NCBI GenBank assembly: GCA_028715395.1
Contig: JAQURY010000005.1
Location: forward strand, 1-40,707
Length of the DNA: 40,707 bases
Reading direction: 5' to 3'
Source of the DNA: Minisyncoccota bacterium
GTDB taxonomy: Bacteria > Patescibacteriota > Minisyncoccia > UBA6257 > 02-FULL-45-10c
Shown: positions 1-16,075 of the stretch, in pieces
Layout of the letters: each line of letters starts with the position of its first letter
How positions within the stretch are numbered: the stretch's first letter is position 1
The notes under the pieces: generated by a model
What the model saw: the letters and a program-made list of their open reading frames with translations, nothing else
Database searches by the model: none
Told to the model about the DNA's origin: nothing
Position numbers and translations under genes: made by a program

Positions 1-266
1 TTCTCGGCAAGAGTGGAAGCTACTTTTGAAGCCGCGAAAGGAGTGGCTTTTTTCGGACCGGAAAAACCTATTGTGCCGGCCGAAGCCCACGCCAACAAAT
101 TCCCCTTATCGTCCGTAACGGAAATAAGAGTGTTATTGTAAGACGCCTTAATATAAACTCTGCCGGTATCAACTTTTTTGACAGAAGCCTTGCCCGGTTT
201 GGTTTCGGATACGGCTTTTTCCTTTGAGACGTCTTCTGTTTTTTGAGCAACTTTAACTTTTCCCAT
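1..266 (-). CDS. rpsK: 30S ribosomal protein S11, 3' part cut by window edge
   Basis: The reading frame runs from an ATG at 264-266 to the window edge without a stop, giving the first 88 residues. After a Lys/Glu-rich extension of about 33 residues comes the S11 core, including [31 protein letters not shown] and the KKATPFAA segment. S11 sits on the platform of the small subunit and contacts 16S rRNA near the E site. It directly follows rpsM, 10 nt downstream, in the usual infA-rpmJ-rpsM-rpsK order. The N-terminal extension is longer than in E. coli. The missing C-terminal part lies outside the window, so nothing can be said about truncation. Confidence 0.93.
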
Positions 267-7631: not shown

Positions 7632-8210
7632 TTACTTTGTACCAAACGACGAAACTGATTTATAAAATAAGTCCTTATATTTATTCCAGTCATCCAAAGA
7701 AACATTATAAGTCAAAAGCCAGGAGGTCTTGATGTCTTTGAATAAAACAACTGTAAGTTTCTTAAAATTAACACTGTTAAGGACATAATCCGATTCGATA
7801 TAAAAAGCGGGAAAACCGTTTATATATTGACCGCCCTCCGGATATATAAATTCGCTTTTTGTCGTTGTCTTATCAAGAAAACTCTTAAGGTTATCAAGAT
7901 AATCGCCTACGGCCTTATTTGATAAAACCTCTTTCTGCGCTGAAAAATATTCTAGGGCCGATTCCGAATCGGACAATTTCACCCCAACTGGATTTATCGC
8001 CATAAAATTGGTCGATGCTACTTCTGTCCATCCCTTTGGGGCAAACATTGAAAAATCTTTATTTTGAACAGTTTCTGAGTTTAATTCTAATGCCGCTATT
8101 TCTACCGGAATAATCTTTACTCTAGTTTTAAAAACCAGAAAATATAGCGTTGCCAAAACAAAAATCATGGCAACTACAATAAAAATAATTTTTATAATTT
8201 TATTTTTCAT
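7632..8210 (-). CDS. Membrane-anchored PsbP/MOG1-like protein
   Basis: The 192-residue protein has a single N-terminal membrane helix (residues about 5-26, IIKIIFIVVAMIFVLATLYF). A soluble domain follows with FSMFAPKGWTEVAST, YINGFPAFYIESDYVLN and LTVVLFKDIKTSWLLTYNVS. This pattern (a 'P.GW' strand, then 'G.PA', then a strand of aromatic and hydrophobic residues) resembles PsbP/MOG1-fold proteins that are common as anchored proteins in CPR genomes. The domain should face outward. Function is unknown. It follows the Cys-rich secreted protein by 4 nt and is probably co-transcribed with it. A second protein of the same layout lies at 27583-28176. Confidence 0.6.
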   Translation of the reverse strand: MKNKIIKIIFIVVAMIFVLATLYFLVFKTRVKIIPVEIAALELNSETVQNKDFSMFAPKGWTEVASTNFMAINPVGVKLSDSESALEYFSAQKEVLSNKAVGDYLDNLKSFLDKTTTKSEFIYPEGGQYINGFPAFYIESDYVLNSVNFKKLTVVLFKDIKTSWLLTYNVSLDDWNKYKDLFYKSVSSFGTK

Positions 8211-8214
8211 ATAT

Positions 8215-9999
8215 TTATGGTTTTACCTCCCCGATATCAATTACATAAATCGTTCTCTCTAAAACTGTGGGGGCGCTATTTCCGTTTACACAAGACAAAA
8301 CATACTTATGAGAACTCTCTCCAAGAGTTACTGTTTTTGTCGTTCCGCTGACCGCCATTCCGTCTATTGTGCAGGCCGTGACATTGGAACAATTCCAACT
8401 CAAAGTTGATGTGCCACCCGCATTAACCGTTAAAGGAGAAGCCGCAAAAGATACACATGACGGTGATTCTGATACTGGGCATGCCCCGCAATCTTGCGGA
8501 CAAGTGCTGCAAGTTTCCGTTCCGTTACAAGCATTATCTCCACAAACAGGCACCACTGCACAAGCTGGCGCTGATACCGTAATAGGATCTGAATAAGTTG
8601 TTGTAAATCCCGCTCTATCCGTAGCCGGAACTTTAATAATGTATGAGTAATCCGTTGACGGTGAAATACTAGCATCGACATAAGAACTCCCTGTCTGCGA
8701 AGAAGCTGTTGTAATTGGATCGCTCCAACGAGATATAGAATAGGAATGCGGTGAACTGCCGCTAGATGGCAAAACCGTAAAAGAAGGACAACTAATACCA
8801 CAAATTTTCAGCCACCCGCCTCCCATACAATAAGTTGAGTTTGCATAGGTTCCTATGGGTATTGTCCATGAACTAGATAAATTCAAAAATGGTTTACTAT
8901 CTTGCAATACTGAATATGATTTATAACTACTGGGATAAATATTACTAATTGGATTTAAAGATTTAACAATGCCCCCTACACAATCATAAATATAGCTACC
9001 TATCCAATTTTTTCCCGGAATATAATAATTGCTGGTTCTGGCAGATAAATTTTCCGCTTGCATTTTGCCAACTCTTAAAATTGCGTAATCAACCCCCTGA
9101 GTTCCGTTAATGCTTAAATTTGTAGTTACTGTGCCCGTGGTTTTATCACAACTACAAGAAGCGGAACCGGTGGCTTTAATCTCTTTCGGAGGAGGAAGAA
9201 CCGGAATAACTGCGCTTGCGGATACTGCTCCTCCAGCGCTATCAGTGGCAGACGCATTCCCGGTAAATTTGTTACCCGAAGTATTGATTATCACGCTCGT
9301 GTAACCAGAAATTAATTTATATTGATAATCCATAAGCCTTGAACAAGTTATTCTATGTTCACAATGACAAAGGCCCGTAAGCTCTCGCCTATCTGTCTCT
9401 GTATATCCGGCATTACAACTTGGATAACCCATGTTACATGGACTAAAACATGCATTACTATTGTAGCTAGTACTGTATTCGTCATACACTGGATCACTGA
9501 CAATAGGGGCGTTTGTGCTATTAGAAAAATCAAAATTAGCGGAAGAAATATAACGATTTAAAAAAGTTTTAATTTCACTGGCAAAATAAATTGACGAACC
9601 CTGATAAACGCCTGTGTCTGGTATGGGATTTTTACTGCTATCTTGATAAAAATTTAATGATGTGCTCATTGGAGGATTAAAACATGATGCATCGGGCACA
9701 ACACCAAGTTTCGTTTTATTACCACCTCCCTTTTCAGCTATAAAATAAACACCCGGCGCAAAACCGTTCATGTCCAATGCAACCTCTCCTCTACTATTTA
9801 CATGTCCAACTTTTGTAAAATATCCGGCAATATCATAAACTCCCACATCACTATATGGAGAAAAATTAACACAGTTGGAATAACATCTGCCAACTGGATT
9901 TGGATAACAATGCGCTTCCGCTCTAACTTGTCTTATAAGACCGAAAAACCCTATTGCACAAACAATAACCGCTAGAAATAAAATTTTAGAGTTCTTCAT
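8215..9999 (-). CDS. Secreted Cys-rich protein with CPR-type Cys motif and Ig-like domain
   Basis: The 594-residue protein starts with a signal peptide (MKNSKILFLAVIVCAIGFFG to about residue 27, cleavage likely after VRA). The extracellular part contains many cysteines, for example CYPNPVGRCYSNC, CFSPCNMGYPSCNAGY and CHCEHRITC, so disulfides are likely. Near residues 485-507 it has CGDNACNGTETCSTCPQDCG, a short Cys repeat frequently seen in Parcubacteria surface proteins. The C-terminal 80 residues form an Ig-like domain (NAGGTSTLSWNCSNVTACTI). No C-terminal anchor or sortase motif is seen. Function is unknown; adhesion or surface display is an inference. I chose the ATG at 9997-9999 over an upstream TTG because it begins the signal peptide and sits just after a -10 box. 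Confidence 0.7.
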   Translation of the reverse strand: MKNSKILFLAVIVCAIGFFGLIRQVRAEAHCYPNPVGRCYSNCVNFSPYSDVGVYDIAGYFTKVGHVNSRGEVALDMNGFAPGVYFIAEKGGGNKTKLGVVPDASCFNPPMSTSLNFYQDSSKNPIPDTGVYQGSSIYFASEIKTFLNRYISSANFDFSNSTNAPIVSDPVYDEYSTSYNSNACFSPCNMGYPSCNAGYTETDRRELTGLCHCEHRITCSRLMDYQYKLISGYTSVIINTSGNKFTGNASATDSAGGAVSASAVIPVLPPPKEIKATGSASCSCDKTTGTVTTNLSINGTQGVDYAILRVGKMQAENLSARTSNYYIPGKNWIGSYIYDCVGGIVKSLNPISNIYPSSYKSYSVLQDSKPFLNLSSSWTIPIGTYANSTYCMGGGWLKICGISCPSFTVLPSSGSSPHSYSISRWSDPITTASSQTGSSYVDASISPSTDYSYIIKVPATDRAGFTTTYSDPITVSAPACAVVPVCGDNACNGTETCSTCPQDCGACPVSESPSCVSFAASPLTVNAGGTSTLSWNCSNVTACTIDGMAVSGTTKTVTLGESSHKYVLSCVNGNSAPTVLERTIYVIDIGEVKP

Positions 10000-10008
10000 A
10001 TTAATTTG

Positions 10009-10014
10009 ATTATA
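10009..10014 (-). promoter_or_regulatory. -10 box for Cys-rich protein gene, predicted near-leaderless
   Basis: A perfect TATAAT lies on the minus strand 9 nt before the ATG. The best -35 at 17 nt is only TTTTGT. The predicted transcript would start 1-3 nt before the ATG. Confidence 0.5.
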
Positions 10015-10033
10015 CAATACTTTTGAGGCAAAC

Positions 10034-10073
10034 AAAAAATCCGTCGAAAGTTAATAACTCTCGACGGATTTTA
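10034..10073 (-). terminator. Terminator after barrel-like gene 1
   Basis: A long hairpin has AAAATCCGTCGA / TCGACGGATTTT arms (10036-10047 and 10061-10072) plus an inner AGTT/AACT extension across one mismatch. On the minus strand it is followed by a six-base T-run. The stem overlaps the stop codon of the 10071 gene. Confidence 0.9.
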
Positions 10074-11165
10074 AAACTCACAACCGACACGAATATAAAA
10101 CCTCATATTTACACCCGTATCGCCGTCCCACACATTCACCCAATTCTTCTCGCTCTCGCTGACATCAAAATCACCGGCATTTTCTTCTAGATTTTTCGAC
10201 CACTCAAGATTTTGGGGCAAAGCTTCGGGGGTTCTTTTCTCTTTGTAAGAAATATTCAAACCAATCCCACCAAGTTGTCCTCCAACTTCAAGCTTTAGCC
10301 CACCAGCAATCTTGTATTCCGCCCCAACACTATACAGCCAAATTTCTGCCTTATCCCGGCTACTTACACTTTCATATTCATACTCAACCGGGTAAAAAAA
10401 GCATCCATATGGAGTATAGGCCTGATCGAAAACGCTTGCCCTTCCCGAAAAATCCATCTGAGCGACGCCGTATCTCGCCTCAACAAAACAAGAAAATTTT
10501 GACTCGTTTATCCCTGGCGTTGATGCAAGATTGTACCGAAGATTAAAAGTGGTCATCTGCGAAGAAAACCCAAACCGTGAAATATCTACGGCATAAGTAT
10601 CTCCCCATCCCCAGTCCTGCAATTTGTAGTCTTGATGAATTGGATTTGTTGTCCTGGACCATTTTCCAGAACTAAGTCCAAAACTCCAATGACTTTTTTT
10701 AGGACCAAACATTACGGTCCAATTGCTGGTTTCTGAGCAACCATTTCCAGAATCAAAATGAGTTGATGGAAATACCCCTGTTCTTCCGTAAGTCAACGCT
10801 GAATAATTATTCAAACGATTATTCATAAGATCCAGCAGCCGATTTACGTCCAAATTAGAATCCAAAGCACGTCCTGCATTTTCGGTCGCAATCTCAAATT
10901 TCCAACCGCTATTTTTTTTCTGATCCGTTTCTGTGTCCAGTTGAATCCGCTCCAGTATTCTCTGTCTGCGCCCTTCCGCTTCCGTAGAAGATGACTTTTC
11001 AACTTCCGCGGCTGGAACAGTGCTGACAGCGACGCTGGGCGCCACAGTATCGGCAACAACTTCCTGAGAATTGTCTATGCCGGAAATGTTTTCGGACATT
11101 CCGTCGGCAATAGCCAATCCGCAAGCCATCACAACAACTGCAACTGCCAAAAAGATTTTCTTCAT
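10071..11165 (-). CDS. Secreted beta-barrel-like (outer-membrane-type) protein 1
   Basis: The 364-residue protein has a signal peptide (MKKIFLAVAVVVMACGLAIA, cleavage near residue 21; VMAC is also a weak lipobox). A low-complexity Ser/Val/Glu region and a short basic helix follow to about residue 90. The remainder alternates polar and hydrophobic residues in amphipathic strands, such as MTTFNLRYNL, KFSCFVEARYGVAQMDFSG and AEIWLYSVGAEYKIAGGLKL. It ends in MRFYIRVGCEF, with the terminal Phe typical of outer-membrane barrels. I do not recognise a specific family. It has a TTGACT-17-TATATT promoter, a strong AGGAGG and its own terminator, so it is a monocistronic unit. A barrel is surprising in a CPR genome, which is thought to lack a classical outer membrane. 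Confidence 0.6.
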   Translation of the reverse strand: MKKIFLAVAVVVMACGLAIADGMSENISGIDNSQEVVADTVAPSVAVSTVPAAEVEKSSSTEAEGRRQRILERIQLDTETDQKKNSGWKFEIATENAGRALDSNLDVNRLLDLMNNRLNNYSALTYGRTGVFPSTHFDSGNGCSETSNWTVMFGPKKSHWSFGLSSGKWSRTTNPIHQDYKLQDWGWGDTYAVDISRFGFSSQMTTFNLRYNLASTPGINESKFSCFVEARYGVAQMDFSGRASVFDQAYTPYGCFFYPVEYEYESVSSRDKAEIWLYSVGAEYKIAGGLKLEVGGQLGGIGLNISYKEKRTPEALPQNLEWSKNLEENAGDFDVSESEKNWVNVWDGDTGVNMRFYIRVGCEF

Positions 11166-11173
11166 GGCTATCG

Positions 11174-11179
11174 CCTCCT
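11174..11179 (-). promoter_or_regulatory. Strong Shine-Dalgarno of barrel-like gene 1
   Basis: AAAAGGAGGC lies on the minus strand, with AGGAGG 8 nt before the ATG. The same ten bases precede the 94-aa gene at 12068. Confidence 0.85.
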
Positions 11180-11182
11180 TTT

Positions 11183-11199
11183 ATCCGCTCTTGGCGGAT
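11183..11199 (-). other. Leader hairpin next to Shine-Dalgarno
   Basis: A perfect six-base-pair stem (ATCCGC / GCGGAT, loop of 5) ends 3 nt before the AAGGAGG of barrel-like gene 1. It could expose or hide the ribosome-binding site or protect the mRNA 5' region. Confidence 0.55.
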
Positions 11200-11216
11200 T
11201 AGATTTTCAGCTTTTT

Positions 11217-11238
11217 AAGTTGTCAAAAAAACCAACTT
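11217..11238 (-). other. Second leader hairpin
   Basis: AAGTTG / CAACTT arms enclose a T-rich loop on the minus-strand transcript, about 20 nt downstream of the predicted transcription start of barrel-like gene 1. Confidence 0.4.
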
Positions 11239-11251
11239 TTTACTTAAATAT

Positions 11252-11280
11252 AATATATCACATTTTAAACAAAAAGTCAA
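11252..11280 (-). promoter_or_regulatory. Promoter for barrel-like gene 1
   Basis: TTGACT (11275-11280), a 17-nt spacer, then TATATT (11252-11257) on the minus strand. The predicted leader is about 80 nt and contains two hairpins before the Shine-Dalgarno. Confidence 0.65.
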
Positions 11281-11292
11281 TCTCATCAGAAA

Positions 11293-11327
11293 ATAAAAAC
11301 CGCCTTCAAATTACTTTGAAAGCGGTC
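11293..11327 (-). terminator. Terminator after barrel-like gene 2
   Basis: ACCGCTTTCAAA pairs with TTTGAAGGCGGT with one mismatch and a four-base loop (11299-11326), then TTTTTATTT on the minus strand. It lies 10 nt after the stop of the 11337 gene. Confidence 0.85.
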
Positions 11328-11336
11328 CCTTATATT

Positions 11337-11894
11337 TCATAAGGCAAAAAGCGCGCTCACGCCCAGGTTTAATACCGTAATATTCCCCAATTCGGAATAA
11401 TTCAAAACATAGTATTTCAACCCGGCGTCAATCGGCACTTTCCCTGATTTGTTAAAAACATATCCTGCTCCAAGCGATAGCGCAAAATGAGAAACCGGCG
11501 TTCCGCCCGTTGCTGAGCAAGAAAACACGCCAATCCCTCCCTGGACATATGCACTCTTCTTTTCTCCCAATCTGTAATCCAGAATACCCATTGTGGAAAT
11601 TGCCGTAACGGCATAAGTCAAATTACCCAGAAAATTTCCTTGGCCATCGCGGGATTCTACCTGCAAGCTCCACAGATTAAAATATCCCGTTTCAAAACCA
11701 TACCTCAGCTTTTCTCCGAACAGCGCCTGTGCATTCGCGCCCAAGCCATTATTGTTATATGCATCATACCAGCCAGCCGTCGGTGAGGCGGTGTTAGTGA
11801 AACTAATTCCGGCTTTAAACATAACTGCCTGTGCCGCATTGCCGGAAAAAACCATCACCGCGAACATCAAAACAAACATTGCCATCCTTTTCAT
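11337..11894 (-). CDS. Secreted small beta-barrel-like (OmpA/OmpW-type) protein 2
   Basis: The 185-residue protein has a signal peptide (MKRMAMFVLMFAVMVFSGNA, cleavage after AQA near residue 23). The mature part of about 160 residues alternates amphipathic strands and turns: LRYGFETGYFNLWSLQVESR, YAVTAISTMGILDYRLGEKK, SAYVQGGIGVFSC, FALSLGAGYVFNKSGKVPID, then the last strand NITVLNLGVSALFAL. Size and strand spacing fit an eight-stranded outer-membrane barrel of the OMP_b-brl kind. No known function is recognised. The gene has a TTGACT-17-TAAAAT promoter, an AAGGAGAG Shine-Dalgarno, a leader hairpin, and its own terminator. It is the second barrel-like gene of the island and diverges from the 12068 gene. 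Confidence 0.6.
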   Translation of the reverse strand: MKRMAMFVLMFAVMVFSGNAAQAVMFKAGISFTNTASPTAGWYDAYNNNGLGANAQALFGEKLRYGFETGYFNLWSLQVESRDGQGNFLGNLTYAVTAISTMGILDYRLGEKKSAYVQGGIGVFSCSATGGTPVSHFALSLGAGYVFNKSGKVPIDAGLKYYVLNYSELGNITVLNLGVSALFAL

Positions 11895-11900
11895 GATTCA

Positions 11901-11941
11901 CTCTCCTTATTAACGGACTTGTCCGATCAGGATTATTCCGT
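11901..11941 (-). promoter_or_regulatory. Shine-Dalgarno and switch-like leader hairpin of barrel-like gene 2
   Basis: AAGGAGAG (11901-11908) lies 6-7 nt before the ATG. Just upstream, CGGAC/GTCCG can form a hairpin (11914-11925). The same TCCGT segment (11913-11917) could instead pair with an ACGGA further upstream (11937-11941), so two mutually exclusive folds exist. Confidence 0.5.
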
Positions 11942-11967
11942 TTTTTATTAAAATTAAAGCTTTTTAT

Positions 11968-11996
11968 ATTTTAATATAAAATCAATTAAAAGTCAA
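11968..11996 (-). promoter_or_regulatory. Promoter for barrel-like gene 2
   Basis: TTGACT (11991-11996), a 17-nt spacer and TAAAAT (11968-11973) lie on the minus strand. The -35 box is one base away from the -35 box of the divergent plus-strand promoter. Confidence 0.6.
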
Positions 11997-11997
11997 T

Positions 11998-12026
11998 TTG
12001 ATTTTATTTAAAATAAACTTTATTAT
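11998..12026 (+). promoter_or_regulatory. Promoter for 94-aa orphan gene
   Basis: TTGATT (11998-12003), 17 nt, TATTAT (12021-12026). It is back-to-back with the minus-strand promoter of barrel-like gene 2. AGGAGG at 12057-12062 precedes the ATG by 5 nt. Confidence 0.5.
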
Positions 12027-12067
12027 AAAAACAGCAACATTCAAATACATTTCAAAAGGAGGCAAAA

Positions 12068-12352
12068 ATGCCTGACGATTTTGTAAAAAGAACAATTTTT
12101 GCCATAAAAGAAGAAGTTAAGAAAAACAGCTTTCAGATAAATGGACACACCTATGTTCCTTTGCACTCAACAAGTTTTCCGCTGGTAATCCTGAGCCGCC
12201 TGGAAAAGAAAGGTTTCTGGATCCGCCGCAAAACACTGCTTGATGTGCTAAAAGAAAATAATCTTCGGTACAAAGACTACAAGAATATTCCGCACATTGA
12301 CCACCTCCATCCCGGAGTCTCCTGTTTTGAAATACTGAAGCCTATCGCCTAA
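12068..12352 (+). CDS. Orphan 94-aa basic protein
   Basis: I do not recognise this 94-residue protein. It is predicted to be soluble, with no signal peptide or membrane helix. It has charged helices (DDFVKRTIFAIKEEVKKNSF), a short hairpin-like region (INGHTYVPLHSTSFP), an Arg/Lys-rich stretch (RLEKKGFWIRRKTLLDVLKE) and a His-rich end (IPHIDHLHPG). That middle looks like a small winged-helix or helix-turn-helix, but no motif is convincing. Coding status is supported by a very strong AAAAGGAGGC Shine-Dalgarno 5 nt before the ATG, a promoter and a perfect terminator right after the stop. It diverges from barrel-like gene 2 and could be a local regulator; this is only an inference. Confidence 0.7.
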   Translation: MPDDFVKRTIFAIKEEVKKNSFQINGHTYVPLHSTSFPLVILSRLEKKGFWIRRKTLLDVLKENNLRYKDYKNIPHIDHLHPGVSCFEILKPIA

Positions 12353-12355
12353 CAG

Positions 12356-12387
12356 CCGCCCGCGCATTATCTCGGGCGGTTTTTTTA
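12356..12387 (+). terminator. Terminator after 94-aa orphan
   Basis: CCGCCCG / CGGGCGG seven-base-pair stem (12356-12362 and 12373-12379) with a ten-base loop, followed by eight T on the plus strand. Confidence 0.92.
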
Positions 12388-12393
12388 TTAAAT

Positions 12394-12420
12394 AAAAAAG
12401 GAGCGCTTTCAAATCGCTCC
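12394..12420 (-). terminator. Terminator after microprotein pair
   Basis: On the minus strand GGAGCG / CGCTCC (loop of 9) is followed by six T. It lies 18 nt after the stop of the minus-strand microprotein gene at 12438, which supports real transcription from that strand. Confidence 0.85.
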
Positions 12421-12437
12421 TATGCGTCTTACATATT

Positions 12438-12593
12438 CTAAAAAACATGACGCTGAGAAATCCGGCGGACAAAAGACGCCTTTGGATTTTTTTCCAAAAA
12501 AAGATGGAATTGGGCGCCCGCACGCGCAATGCCGTAAGATCTTTCCATTATTTTCCCCAGTTTCTTTATTCTTGCCTTTCTTTTTCCCTTCAT
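12438..12593 (-). CDS. Basic microprotein B (51 aa), similar to microprotein A
   Basis: The frame starts at ATG 12591-12593, overlapping the TGA of the preceding gene as ATGA. GGAG of the upstream gene's last codons acts as its Shine-Dalgarno. The 51 residues begin MKGKRKARIKKLGKIMERSY and end LFLEKNPKASFVRRISQRHV-F. About 15 are Lys/Arg. The segment KLGKIMERS ... LFLEKNPKASFVRR matches KISKMMEST ... RFFQENPGVSLVKK in microprotein A, apart from an insertion of about 10 residues. The two therefore look like tandem duplicates. No known family is recognised. A clean hairpin terminator follows. RNA or nucleic-acid binding is plausible from the charge only. Confidence 0.6.
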   Translation of the reverse strand: MKGKRKARIKKLGKIMERSYGIARAGAQFHLFLEKNPKASFVRRISQRHVF

Positions 12594-12778
12594 CTCAATC
12601 TCCTCTGTTTTATTTTTCCTCTTCTGATAAGTGCTGCTTTTGGCGGCATCATCCCGTTATCCCAGGTAGCCGCATTAGGCCTGAACATGTTTTCCCTCGG
12701 AACTTTTTTCACAAGAGAAACGCCTGGATTTTCCTGAAAAAACCTTGATGTGGATTCCATCATTTTGCTTATTTTCAC
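12590..12778 (-). CDS. Basic microprotein A (62 aa), first gene of microprotein pair
   Basis: This starts at a GTG (12776-12778) preceded by AGGGGGA 7-8 nt upstream; an internal ATG at residue 6 or 7 is an alternative. The 62 residues include KISKMMESTSRFFQENPGVS, LVKKVPRENMFRPNAATWDN and a basic tail (IRRGKIKQRRLR). It has no signal peptide or membrane helix. A near-consensus promoter (12818-12846) lies 40 nt upstream, and the 3' end overlaps microprotein B by 4 nt, so the two form an operon. It shares the F-x-E-NP-x-x-S-x-V-(K/R)-(K/R) core with microprotein B. Function is unknown. A single broken gene is less likely because both copies keep the conserved core. Confidence 0.6.
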   Translation of the reverse strand: MKISKMMESTSRFFQENPGVSLVKKVPRENMFRPNAATWDNGMMPPKAALIRRGKIKQRRLR

Positions 12779-12817
12779 GTTTAATCCCCCTATTTAAATG
12801 GCAAAAAGCTTGAAATT

Positions 12818-12846
12818 ATTATAAACATTTTTCCGTCTTTCCGCAA
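12818..12846 (-). promoter_or_regulatory. Promoter for microprotein operon
   Basis: TTGCGG (12841-12846), 17-nt spacer, perfect TATAAT (12818-12823) on the minus strand. The predicted leader is about 33 nt and includes the AGGGGGA Shine-Dalgarno. It lies in the divergent region with dnaE. Confidence 0.7.
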
Positions 12847-12886: not shown

Positions 12887-15800
12887 ATGAAACCCTTTAT
12901 TCACCTCCACACCCATTCGCACTATTCCCTCCTTGATGGTTTGGCTAAAATTGACGGCCTTGTGGACCGCGCCAAAGAACTCGGCATGGATTCACTCGCT
13001 CTCACCGATCACGGCAATCTTTACGGCGCCATAGAGTTTTATAAAACCGCAAAAAGAGCTGGCATCAAACCGATTCTCGGAGTTGAAACTTACGTTGCCC
13101 CAAACAAACATACGGATAAGCGTCCCAAAATAGATAATCAAAATTATCACCTGATTCTTTTGGCTGAAAATAAAACCGGCTGGCAAAATATAATTCACCT
13201 TGTCACAAAATCTTATCTTGACGGGTTTTATTACAAACCGAGAGTAGATCATGACCTGCTCCGCGAATATCACGAGGGAATTATCGCCCTCTCCGCCTGC
13301 GCGGCGGGAGAAATCGGCCAAGCAATTATTTCAAACCAATATGAAGAAGCGAAAAAAATCGCTCTGGAATATGAGCATATTTTCGGCAAGGGAAATTATT
13401 TTTTGGAAACTCAACATCACCCGAATATTTCCGACTGCATAAAAATAAATAAAGAGGTTTTGAAACTCTCAAAAGAAACCGGAATTGAAGTTGTGGCCAC
13501 GCAGGATATCCATTATTTAAAACCCGAGGACGCGGATGTGCACGACGTTCTGCTCGCGGTCCAAACAGGCAATACTATTGATGACCCCGACCGCCTGACT
13601 TTAAAAATGGACGATTTTTCAATGCGTTCGCCGGAAGAAATGAACGAGTTTTTTAAAGACAATCCGGAAGTTTTGGAAAACACCGCAAAAATCGCTGAGC
13701 GCTGCAATGTCGAAATAGAACTCCACAAAATCATGTTGCCGAAATTTTCTTTGCCGGAAAATAAAACCGCCAATGATTTTTTGAATGATTTAATAAAAGA
13801 AAAATTGCCTCTGCGATACAGCCCCGTCACTGACGAAGTCCAAAAACGTCTGGATTTTGAATTGAGCGTCATAGAAAAAACCGGATTCACCGATTACTTT
13901 TTAATCGTCCAGGATTTCGTCAATTGGGCAAAAGAAAGAGGCATTGTCGTGGGACCGGGCAGAGGTTCGGCCGCCGGCAGCATAGTTTCTTATATATTGG
14001 GAATCACCGACTTGGATCCGCTAAAATATAATCTCCTTTTTGAAAGGTTTTTAAATCCTGAAAGAATTTCCATGCCCGATATCGATTTGGACTTCACCGA
14101 CGTCCGCCGGGATGAAGTTTTCGGGTATTTGAAAGAAAAATACGGAGAAAACAGAACCGCCCACATTATTACCTTCGGAACAATGGCTGCCAGAGCCGCA
14201 ATCCGCGATGCCGGCCGGGCCATGGGAATACCGCTAAGTTTCTGCGACCAAATCGCCAAACTGATTCCATTTAACAATGACTTGGACGAAGCCCTAAACG
14301 GCGTGTCTGAGTTGAAAACTCTTTATGAAAACGAACCTGATGCCAAAAAACTTGTTGATATAGCCAAAAAATTGGAAGGAGTGGCCCGACACGCATCCGT
14401 TCACGCCTGCGGAACCGTTATCTCGCAGGAACCGCTGACTGATTACTTGCCACTTCAGCATTCCCCTCAAGACCCCAATGCGGTTATGACTCAATTTGAA
14501 ATGCACAGTATTGAAGATATTGGTCTTTTAAAAATGGACTTGCTCGGACTGAAAAACCTGACCATCATTGAAAACACTTTGCGACTCGTTGAAGAAAATA
14601 CCGGAGAAAAAATAAATATCGGCAACATTCCTTTGGACGATAAAAATGTTTTCAAAATTCTGCAGGAGGCCGATACCACCGGAATCTTCCAGCTGGAAAG
14701 CAGCGGCATGCGCCGGTATCTGAAAGAATTAAAACCAAGCAATATGGAAGATATTATTGCCATGGTCGCTCTTTACCGCCCCGGACCGATGGAGCTTATC
14801 CCGACCTACATAAAAAGAAAATTCGGAAAAGAGCCCGTTGTTTATCTCCACGAAAAACTTGAACCCGTTTTGAAGAACACTTATGGCATCATGATTTACC
14901 AGGAACAGCTGATGAACGGCGCGCGCGCCCTGTCCGGCATCACTCTTTCGGAAGCGGACATTTTAAGAAAAGCCGTCGGAAAGAAAATCGCCAAATTATT
15001 GCAGGAACAAAAAAGCAAAATTATTGACGGCGCGATAAAAAACGGCGTCAAAAAAGAAATCGCAGAGCAATTCTGGCTGCTGATTGAGCCGTTTGATAAA
15101 TATGGATTCAACCGTTCGCATGCCGCCTGCTACGCCATGATCGCCTATCGCACCGCTTATTTGCGAGCCCATTTCCCGGCTGAATTTTATACCTCGCTTT
15201 TCAACTCCGATTCCGGAGATATTGAACGCATAGCATTCCTGATATCTGAAGCTAAAAAAGCCGGCATTGCGGTTTTGCCCCCGGATATAAATAAAAGCTT
15301 GGCAACTTTCGCGCCAGAGGAAAAAAGTGTCCGATTCGGGCTTCTGGCAATTAAAAATCTTGGACAAAATATTGTCGACGCTATCGTCAGCGAAAGACAA
15401 CGAGGCGGACCATTCAAAAACCTCACCGATTTGCTGGAACGCGTTGACCATAAAGACCTAAATAAAAAATCTCTTGAAGCATTGCTTAAATGCGGCGCGC
15501 TGGAATCGTTAAATATAGAAAGAAATTCCGGATTATTGAATATTGAAGATATTCTTAAATTCTCCGGCAACTTAAAACGCTCCAAGCAGACAAACCAGCA
15601 TTCTCTGTTTGGCACCCATTCCAATACTCCGTCCTTAAACTCTCTGAAGCTTAAAGTTGTTCAAGAAGCCACTCCGAAAGAACGCCTGGCCTGGGAAAAA
15701 GAATTGCTCGGTCTTTATATTTCCGACCATCCTCTCAATTCCTATAAAGAAAAAATTGCTGAACAGCAGAAACAATATGAAATAAACGATATTAAATATT

Positions 15801-16075
15801 TAAACACCACCAATGGAGACCTCTCGCCGGTCAAGCGGTATAAAATCGTTGGAATGGTCGCCAAAATCCATAAAATCGTCACCAAAATGGGTCAGCCGAT
15901 GGCTTTCGTAGTAATTGAAGATTTTACCGATAATCTGGAAATAATAGTTTTCTCCGATACTTTGGAAAAAACCATGCCCATTTGGCAAGAAGGAAAAGTG
16001 GTGCTTGTTTCCGGAAAAATGTCTTTCAGAAACAACGAGCTTAAAATGATTTGCGAACGCGCGGTAGAAATATAA
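12887..16075 (+). CDS. dnaE: DNA polymerase III alpha subunit
   Basis: The 1062-residue protein is the replicative polymerase subunit. The N-terminal PHP domain is visible from HLHTHSHYSLLDG (residues 6-18) and LTDHGNLYGA to GVETYV. The polymerase core has GPGRGSAAGSIVSYILG (about 353-369) and PDIDLDF (about 400-406, catalytic aspartates), then GIFQLESSGMRRYL and YGFNRSHAACYAMIAYRTAY. Near the C-terminus an OB fold with MVAKIHKIVTKMGQPMAFVV lies at about 985-1004. Length is slightly short of E. coli DnaE (1160). It is transcribed alone, divergent from the microprotein operon. A weak TAGAAT -10 lies about 9 nt before the ATG, and there is no Shine-Dalgarno. Confidence 0.97.
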   Translation: MKPFIHLHTHSHYSLLDGLAKIDGLVDRAKELGMDSLALTDHGNLYGAIEFYKTAKRAGIKPILGVETYVAPNKHTDKRPKIDNQNYHLILLAENKTGWQNIIHLVTKSYLDGFYYKPRVDHDLLREYHEGIIALSACAAGEIGQAIISNQYEEAKKIALEYEHIFGKGNYFLETQHHPNISDCIKINKEVLKLSKETGIEVVATQDIHYLKPEDADVHDVLLAVQTGNTIDDPDRLTLKMDDFSMRSPEEMNEFFKDNPEVLENTAKIAERCNVEIELHKIMLPKFSLPENKTANDFLNDLIKEKLPLRYSPVTDEVQKRLDFELSVIEKTGFTDYFLIVQDFVNWAKERGIVVGPGRGSAAGSIVSYILGITDLDPLKYNLLFERFLNPERISMPDIDLDFTDVRRDEVFGYLKEKYGENRTAHIITFGTMAARAAIRDAGRAMGIPLSFCDQIAKLIPFNNDLDEALNGVSELKTLYENEPDAKKLVDIAKKLEGVARHASVHACGTVISQEPLTDYLPLQHSPQDPNAVMTQFEMHSIEDIGLLKMDLLGLKNLTIIENTLRLVEENTGEKINIGNIPLDDKNVFKILQEADTTGIFQLESSGMRRYLKELKPSNMEDIIAMVALYRPGPMELIPTYIKRKFGKEPVVYLHEKLEPVLKNTYGIMIYQEQLMNGARALSGITLSEADILRKAVGKKIAKLLQEQKSKIIDGAIKNGVKKEIAEQFWLLIEPFDKYGFNRSHAACYAMIAYRTAYLRAHFPAEFYTSLFNSDSGDIERIAFLISEAKKAGIAVLPPDINKSLATFAPEEKSVRFGLLAIKNLGQNIVDAIVSERQRGGPFKNLTDLLERVDHKDLNKKSLEALLKCGALESLNIERNSGLLNIEDILKFSGNLKRSKQTNQHSLFGTHSNTPSLNSLKLKVVQEATPKERLAWEKELLGLYISDHPLNSYKEKIAEQQKQYEINDIKYLNTTNGDLSPVKRYKIVGMVAKIHKIVTKMGQPMAFVVIEDFTDNLEIIVFSDTLEKTMPIWQEGKVVLVSGKMSFRNNELKMICERAVEI

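Follow-up and report, generated by a model that had tools for sequence, protein, structure and literature searches.

The window, that is, the whole 40,707-nucleotide stretch of DNA analysed here, comes from a genome of 715 kb with 99.4% completeness and 6% contamination. This size and the gene content fit the Patescibacteria (CPR), the group in which the original prediction placed it. On its minus strand lie two small open reading frames, ORFa (12590..12778; 62 codons, GTG start) and ORFb (12438..12593; 51 codons, ATG start), each predicted to encode a basic microprotein. When the frames are read in this way, the stop codon of ORFa and the start codon of ORFb share the ATGA at 12590-12593. Both frames and their overlap had been described in the original prediction, and we verified their coordinates and strand. 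The frames had been called too small for common gene callers, which is doubtful, since such programs take genes down to about 90 nt. The pair sits between orf94 (12068..12352, plus strand), a genus-restricted gene with an AAGGAGG Shine-Dalgarno (SD) site and its own terminator after the gene, and dnaE (12887..16075, plus strand), which is divergent from the pair and was named as DNA polymerase III alpha by sequence character rather than by family search.

A promoter-like site precedes ORFa on the minus strand, consisting of a −35-like TTGCGG (12841..12846) located by motif scan and, 17 nt from it, a −10-like TATAAT (12818..12823). With both strands counted, the 40.7-kb window contains only five sites of the form TTGNNN-16..18-TATAAT, and that of the pair is one of them; it was not in the list returned by a standard promoter scan. 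The TTGCGG agrees with the consensus at three of six positions and is also found in G001, a genome of the same genus, which has CATATA at the place of the −10-like element. The −35 is probably part of a dnaE leader shared with G001, judging from the aligned sequences. Beyond ORFb, we located a hairpin terminator (12393..12421, minus strand) with a stem of 7, AGGAGCG pairing with CGCTCCT across a 9-nt loop, followed by U6. Its predicted stability (−10.6 kcal/mol, z −2.5) was equalled by 5 of 200 shuffles, and the terminator scan had missed it because its loop limit was 8. Both elements said to bracket the pair are thus present, although the −35 is a poor one.

The start of ORFb is preceded by GAGGAG (12600..12605, minus strand), which lies inside the coding end of ORFa, 6 nt before the ATG, and which the strict SD test scored as AGGAG with a spacing of 6. 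ORFa may have an SD site of its own, AGGGGG (12786..12791, minus strand), 7 nt before the GTG; as this would pair only via G-U wobble, it fails the strict test. Among spurious ORFs at least 45 aa long, just 1 of 172 had an SD of at least 5 nt at its first start. By a simple test, and with start codons of our choosing, 25 of 35 genes of the window had no SD. The three genes immediately to the left of the pair (10071-11165, 11337-11894 and 12068-12352) have SD sites of 6-7 nt, and strong sites were seen at the small accessory genes in the region of 10-12.8 kb, as well as at several of their G001 counterparts.

Coding potential was scored with a codon model built from 27 large genes of the window, and 173 pieces of real genes and 155 spurious ORFs served as references. 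ORFa and ORFb scored 0.14 and 0.18 per codon, compared with 0.319 (sd 0.138) for real-gene pieces and −0.148 (sd 0.182) for spurious ORFs. Scores at least as high were reached by 7/155 spurious ORFs for ORFa and 5/155 for ORFb, and scores no higher by 17/173 and 32/173 real-gene pieces, respectively. Both frames lie in the zone where the two references overlap, closer to genes than to spurious ORFs. The synonymous component alone was less decisive, being matched by 18 (ORFa) and 34 (ORFb) of the 155 spurious ORFs, and the G+C content of ORFa by codon position was 0.38, 0.44 and 0.43, against about 0.5, 0.3 and 0.45 in the large genes. Two tests of the arrangement were made post hoc, with the pair already picked: in simulated first-order gaps equal in length to the real one, an ATGA-type overlapping pair of similar size arose in 51/4000 cases, and in 1/4000 the second start of such a pair was also preceded by an SD; of the nine overlapping pairs of this type listed for the window, this one alone has a 5-nt SD, and one other has GGAG. 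ORFs of 108 and 96 aa on the opposite strand were rejected as true genes, as their codon scores were lower (−0.192 and −0.057) and no SD was read upstream. Together, the codon scores, the SD site and the rarity of the ATGA arrangement support as probable the original reading of a gene pair with its own promoter-like site and terminator, and we regard ORFa and ORFb as real and translationally coupled genes in all probability, the coupling being read from their arrangement.

The two proteins had also been proposed to share motifs and to descend from a tandem duplication. Their best BLOSUM62 local alignment is ungapped and spans 20 residues, six of them identical (F, N, P, S, V and F). Its score of 43 was reached by 10/5000 residue shuffles; among the six-frame peptides of the window (590, self and partner counted), unrelated ones scored 37 at most. 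Of the proposed resemblance, the N-terminal K-x-x-K-x-M-E half is weak, as it falls outside the best alignment and can be joined only with about 10 gap positions. At the DNA level, similarity was no better than chance (1354/2000 codon shuffles equal or better). An old tandem duplication is plausible on these comparisons, with a protein similarity that is modest yet beyond chance and a DNA similarity that is not.

G001 represents the nearest species searched, with 94% identity in the N-terminal 250 aa of dnaE. Gene order is kept there: a 182-aa protein (in the window, a 185-aa membrane-protein-like gene), orf94 (89% identical), a gap and dnaE. Alignable DNA ends at 12361 and restarts at 12820, leaving a stretch without G001 counterpart (12362..12819; 458 versus 439 unrelated bases), in which common matches are only 8-13 bases long. 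In G001 this gap holds a 96-aa plus-strand ORF whose product contains two CxxC motifs and matched no Pfam family past the cut-off. The ORF has an SD-like GAGGTGA and, on visual inspection, a terminator of its own. Synteny, which had been put forward as a check on the pair, thus extends to the flanks common to both genomes but not to the pair itself, which is absent from G001 and has another small gene in its place. As a positive control, orf94 differed from its G001 counterpart at 10, 5 and 38 first, second and third codon positions, with 30 synonymous versus 12 other changed codons, and dnaE at 26, 7 and 112 positions in 999 nt. These substitution patterns indicate that orf94 and dnaE evolve as genes between the two species. 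Within the family, orf94 was present in 2/17 genomes, both of this genus.

Comparison of window positions 7632-12352 with the G001 locus (L050, reverse strand) revealed a variable island to the left of the pair. In G001 this island carries a gene pair of 192-aa/606-aa type in two diverged copies, one of which lies, along with about 2.6 kb of further genes, between the two membrane-protein-like genes of that genome. The extra genes include a radical-SAM-like and an aminoacyl-tRNA-synthetase-like gene, named by sequence character only. Two minus-strand genes of the window island, 10071-11165 and 11337-11894, encode signal-peptide-like proteins that weakly resemble outer-membrane beta-barrels, with matches below cut-off to Pfam OMP_b-brl (E 0.012) and the NCBIfam TDE1717 family (E 0.0012). 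The lineage is usually regarded as having no outer membrane, and beta-barrel-like proteins are odd in such a tiny genome. A further terminator stretch, 44 bases long and 84% identical to that after orf94 and the pair, was found on contig C21 of another genome, G000 (L002, 1480-1545), adjoining an unrelated 129-aa CxxC-bearing gene. As only the terminator stretch is similar and the neighbouring genes are unrelated, we rejected this DNA match as a relative of the locus.

The pair had been thought to represent an undescribed family. Relatives were sought in overlapping sets of up to 383 genomes per query, some of which possibly did not contain records very close to the source genome of the window. 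ORFa matched 6/100 other genomes at E≤1, 6/243 at E≤0.05 and 3/378 at E≤0.02; the corresponding counts for ORFb were 4/100, 2/243 and 2/378, and a profile of the shared core matched 8/382 at E≤0.02. As E-values are per genome, these counts are no more than expected by chance (up to about 12/243 at E≤0.05 and about 8/382 at E≤0.02). Inspection of 28 weak matches in 28 loci yielded no convincing relative. Twenty coincide with a longer ORF that is read differently, in most cases a seemingly real gene on the opposite strand, and one (L040) lies in frame inside a 533-aa protein; of the remaining seven, four have internal stops and three (L005, L006 and L043) do not have the core. Nor did any of these 28 matches carry the N-P core within a credible separate gene: two matches with N-P (L007 and L044) are antisense to long frames, and two (L039 and L040) lie inside larger unrelated proteins. 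Three matches to viral contigs proved to be one identical, unrelated frame with FFQENPG-like letters.

Other searches gave the same picture. Against phages and plasmids, one tblastn search returned no match and the others a best E of 1 to 6. Pattern scans of genome contigs yielded 76 and 198 candidate stretches with no relative among them, and a viral contig scan for ORFb none among 16. Neither protein matched Pfam, NCBIfam, PHROGs, PADLOC or PDB past curated or ordinary cut-offs. An Rfam match to Hrs13 (E 0.0026; 23.5 bits, below the gathering score of 52) was rejected as an RNA gene; it lies on the plus strand, where it covers the final part of orf94 and the terminator of that gene. Hence, neither the individual proteins nor the two-protein profile identified a convincing homologue in the genomes searched, including G001. 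Judged by the refuting condition that the original prediction had set, a lack of homologues among close relatives, the idea of a family with a conserved NP core did not hold up.

Both products are strongly basic. That of ORFa has 15 K/R versus 4 D/E residues (pI 11.8, net charge about +10.5), and that of ORFb 15 versus 2 (pI 11.9, about +12.7). Models computed from each single sequence are helical: for ORFa, a helix at residues 2-16 plus short helices (pLDDT 74, pTM 0.28); for ORFb, a long helix at 4-35 and a second at 38-48 (pLDDT 74, pTM 0.32). Their charge, size and modelled helices weakly suggest that the products might bind nucleic acid, the ribosome or an acidic partner.

With moderate confidence, we interpret the pair as a real but species-restricted orphan operon of two genes; it is absent at the G001 locus, where both flanks are shared. 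We consider it unlikely, though worth weighing, that the frames instead arose by chance in DNA that is non-coding or was inserted recently, and whose terminator and promoter-like site would serve a small RNA or nothing. The lack of conservation in any search, the atypical G+C of ORFa by codon position and the poor −35 would all fit this explanation. However, the coding scores and the combination of SD and ATGA would then be rare coincidences, and Rfam has nothing near gathering score in the region of the pair. A variant of our preferred interpretation, overlapping with it in probability and itself held with less than even confidence, keeps the genes as real orphans and attributes their resemblance to chance or convergence. 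Only 6/20 core residues are identical, the DNA is no more similar than shuffled codons and the N-terminal match needs its gap, as would be expected under this variant; the scarcity of equally good shuffles and the rank of the pair above the other six-frame peptides of the window speak for a common origin.

Two functional assignments are less likely. Two small overlapping genes that have a promoter-like site and a terminator to themselves and are patchily present in a variable gap recall toxin-antitoxin pairs. In type II pairs, the antitoxin is usually acidic, whereas both products here are strongly basic; as neither matched Pfam or NCBIfam and PADLOC relates ORFb to DrmC with just 12 bits (E 0.02), we judge this assignment improbable. 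Even less probable is a pair of secreted antimicrobial peptides resembling two-peptide leaderless bacteriocins, which the products recall in a general way in being small, basic and possibly tandem paralogues. No transporter-like or immunity-like gene directly adjoins the pair, the products are not notably hydrophobic by eye and no database match points in this direction.

Under our preferred interpretation, that of a species-restricted operon, a single transcript of ~0.4 kb, running from the promoter-like site to the hairpin, would carry both ORFa and ORFb. ATGA termination-reinitiation couples the translation of overlapping operon genes, and the pair has the same arrangement, with ATGA and an SD inside the first gene. 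Ribosomes ending ORFa would restart at the ATGA, aided by the internal GAGGAG, so that both proteins would be made together. The coupled genes of known operons encode known subunits, whereas here two tiny orphan genes are concerned, and their coupling is deduced from the arrangement. Given the shared 20-residue core, the two genes may go back to a single small gene that was duplicated in tandem long ago. In this form, the operon would be a self-contained cassette in the gap before dnaE, the content of which differs between two species of the genus. More tentatively, and in our view rather doubtfully, this gap might be an exchange site at which species of a lineage with mostly SD-less core genes swap self-contained orphan micro-operons, each equipped with a promoter, a strong SD and a terminator of its own, the pair being one such cassette and the CxxC gene of G001 another.

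The pair is probably real but ordinary, of a kind very common in Patescibacteria. The AGNOSTOS study reports 54,343 lineage-specific unknown clusters for this phylum, of which 45,788 are specific to a species, and requires at least two genomes for a lineage-specific cluster (PMC9132574). Like the species-restricted unknowns of Patescibacteria reported there, the pair has no detectable relatives and appears confined to a single species; with products of fewer than 100 codons, it also resembles the entries of smORF catalogues such as GMSC (PMC11364881). No class of lineage-specific unknown genes is more frequent in this phylum than the species-level orphan, so that a single case matters little. 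If, however, the contrast between SD-bearing small accessory genes and a mostly SD-less core held lineage-wide, it would offer a simple means of spotting, in reduced bacteria, small genes that were acquired recently or are regulated separately.
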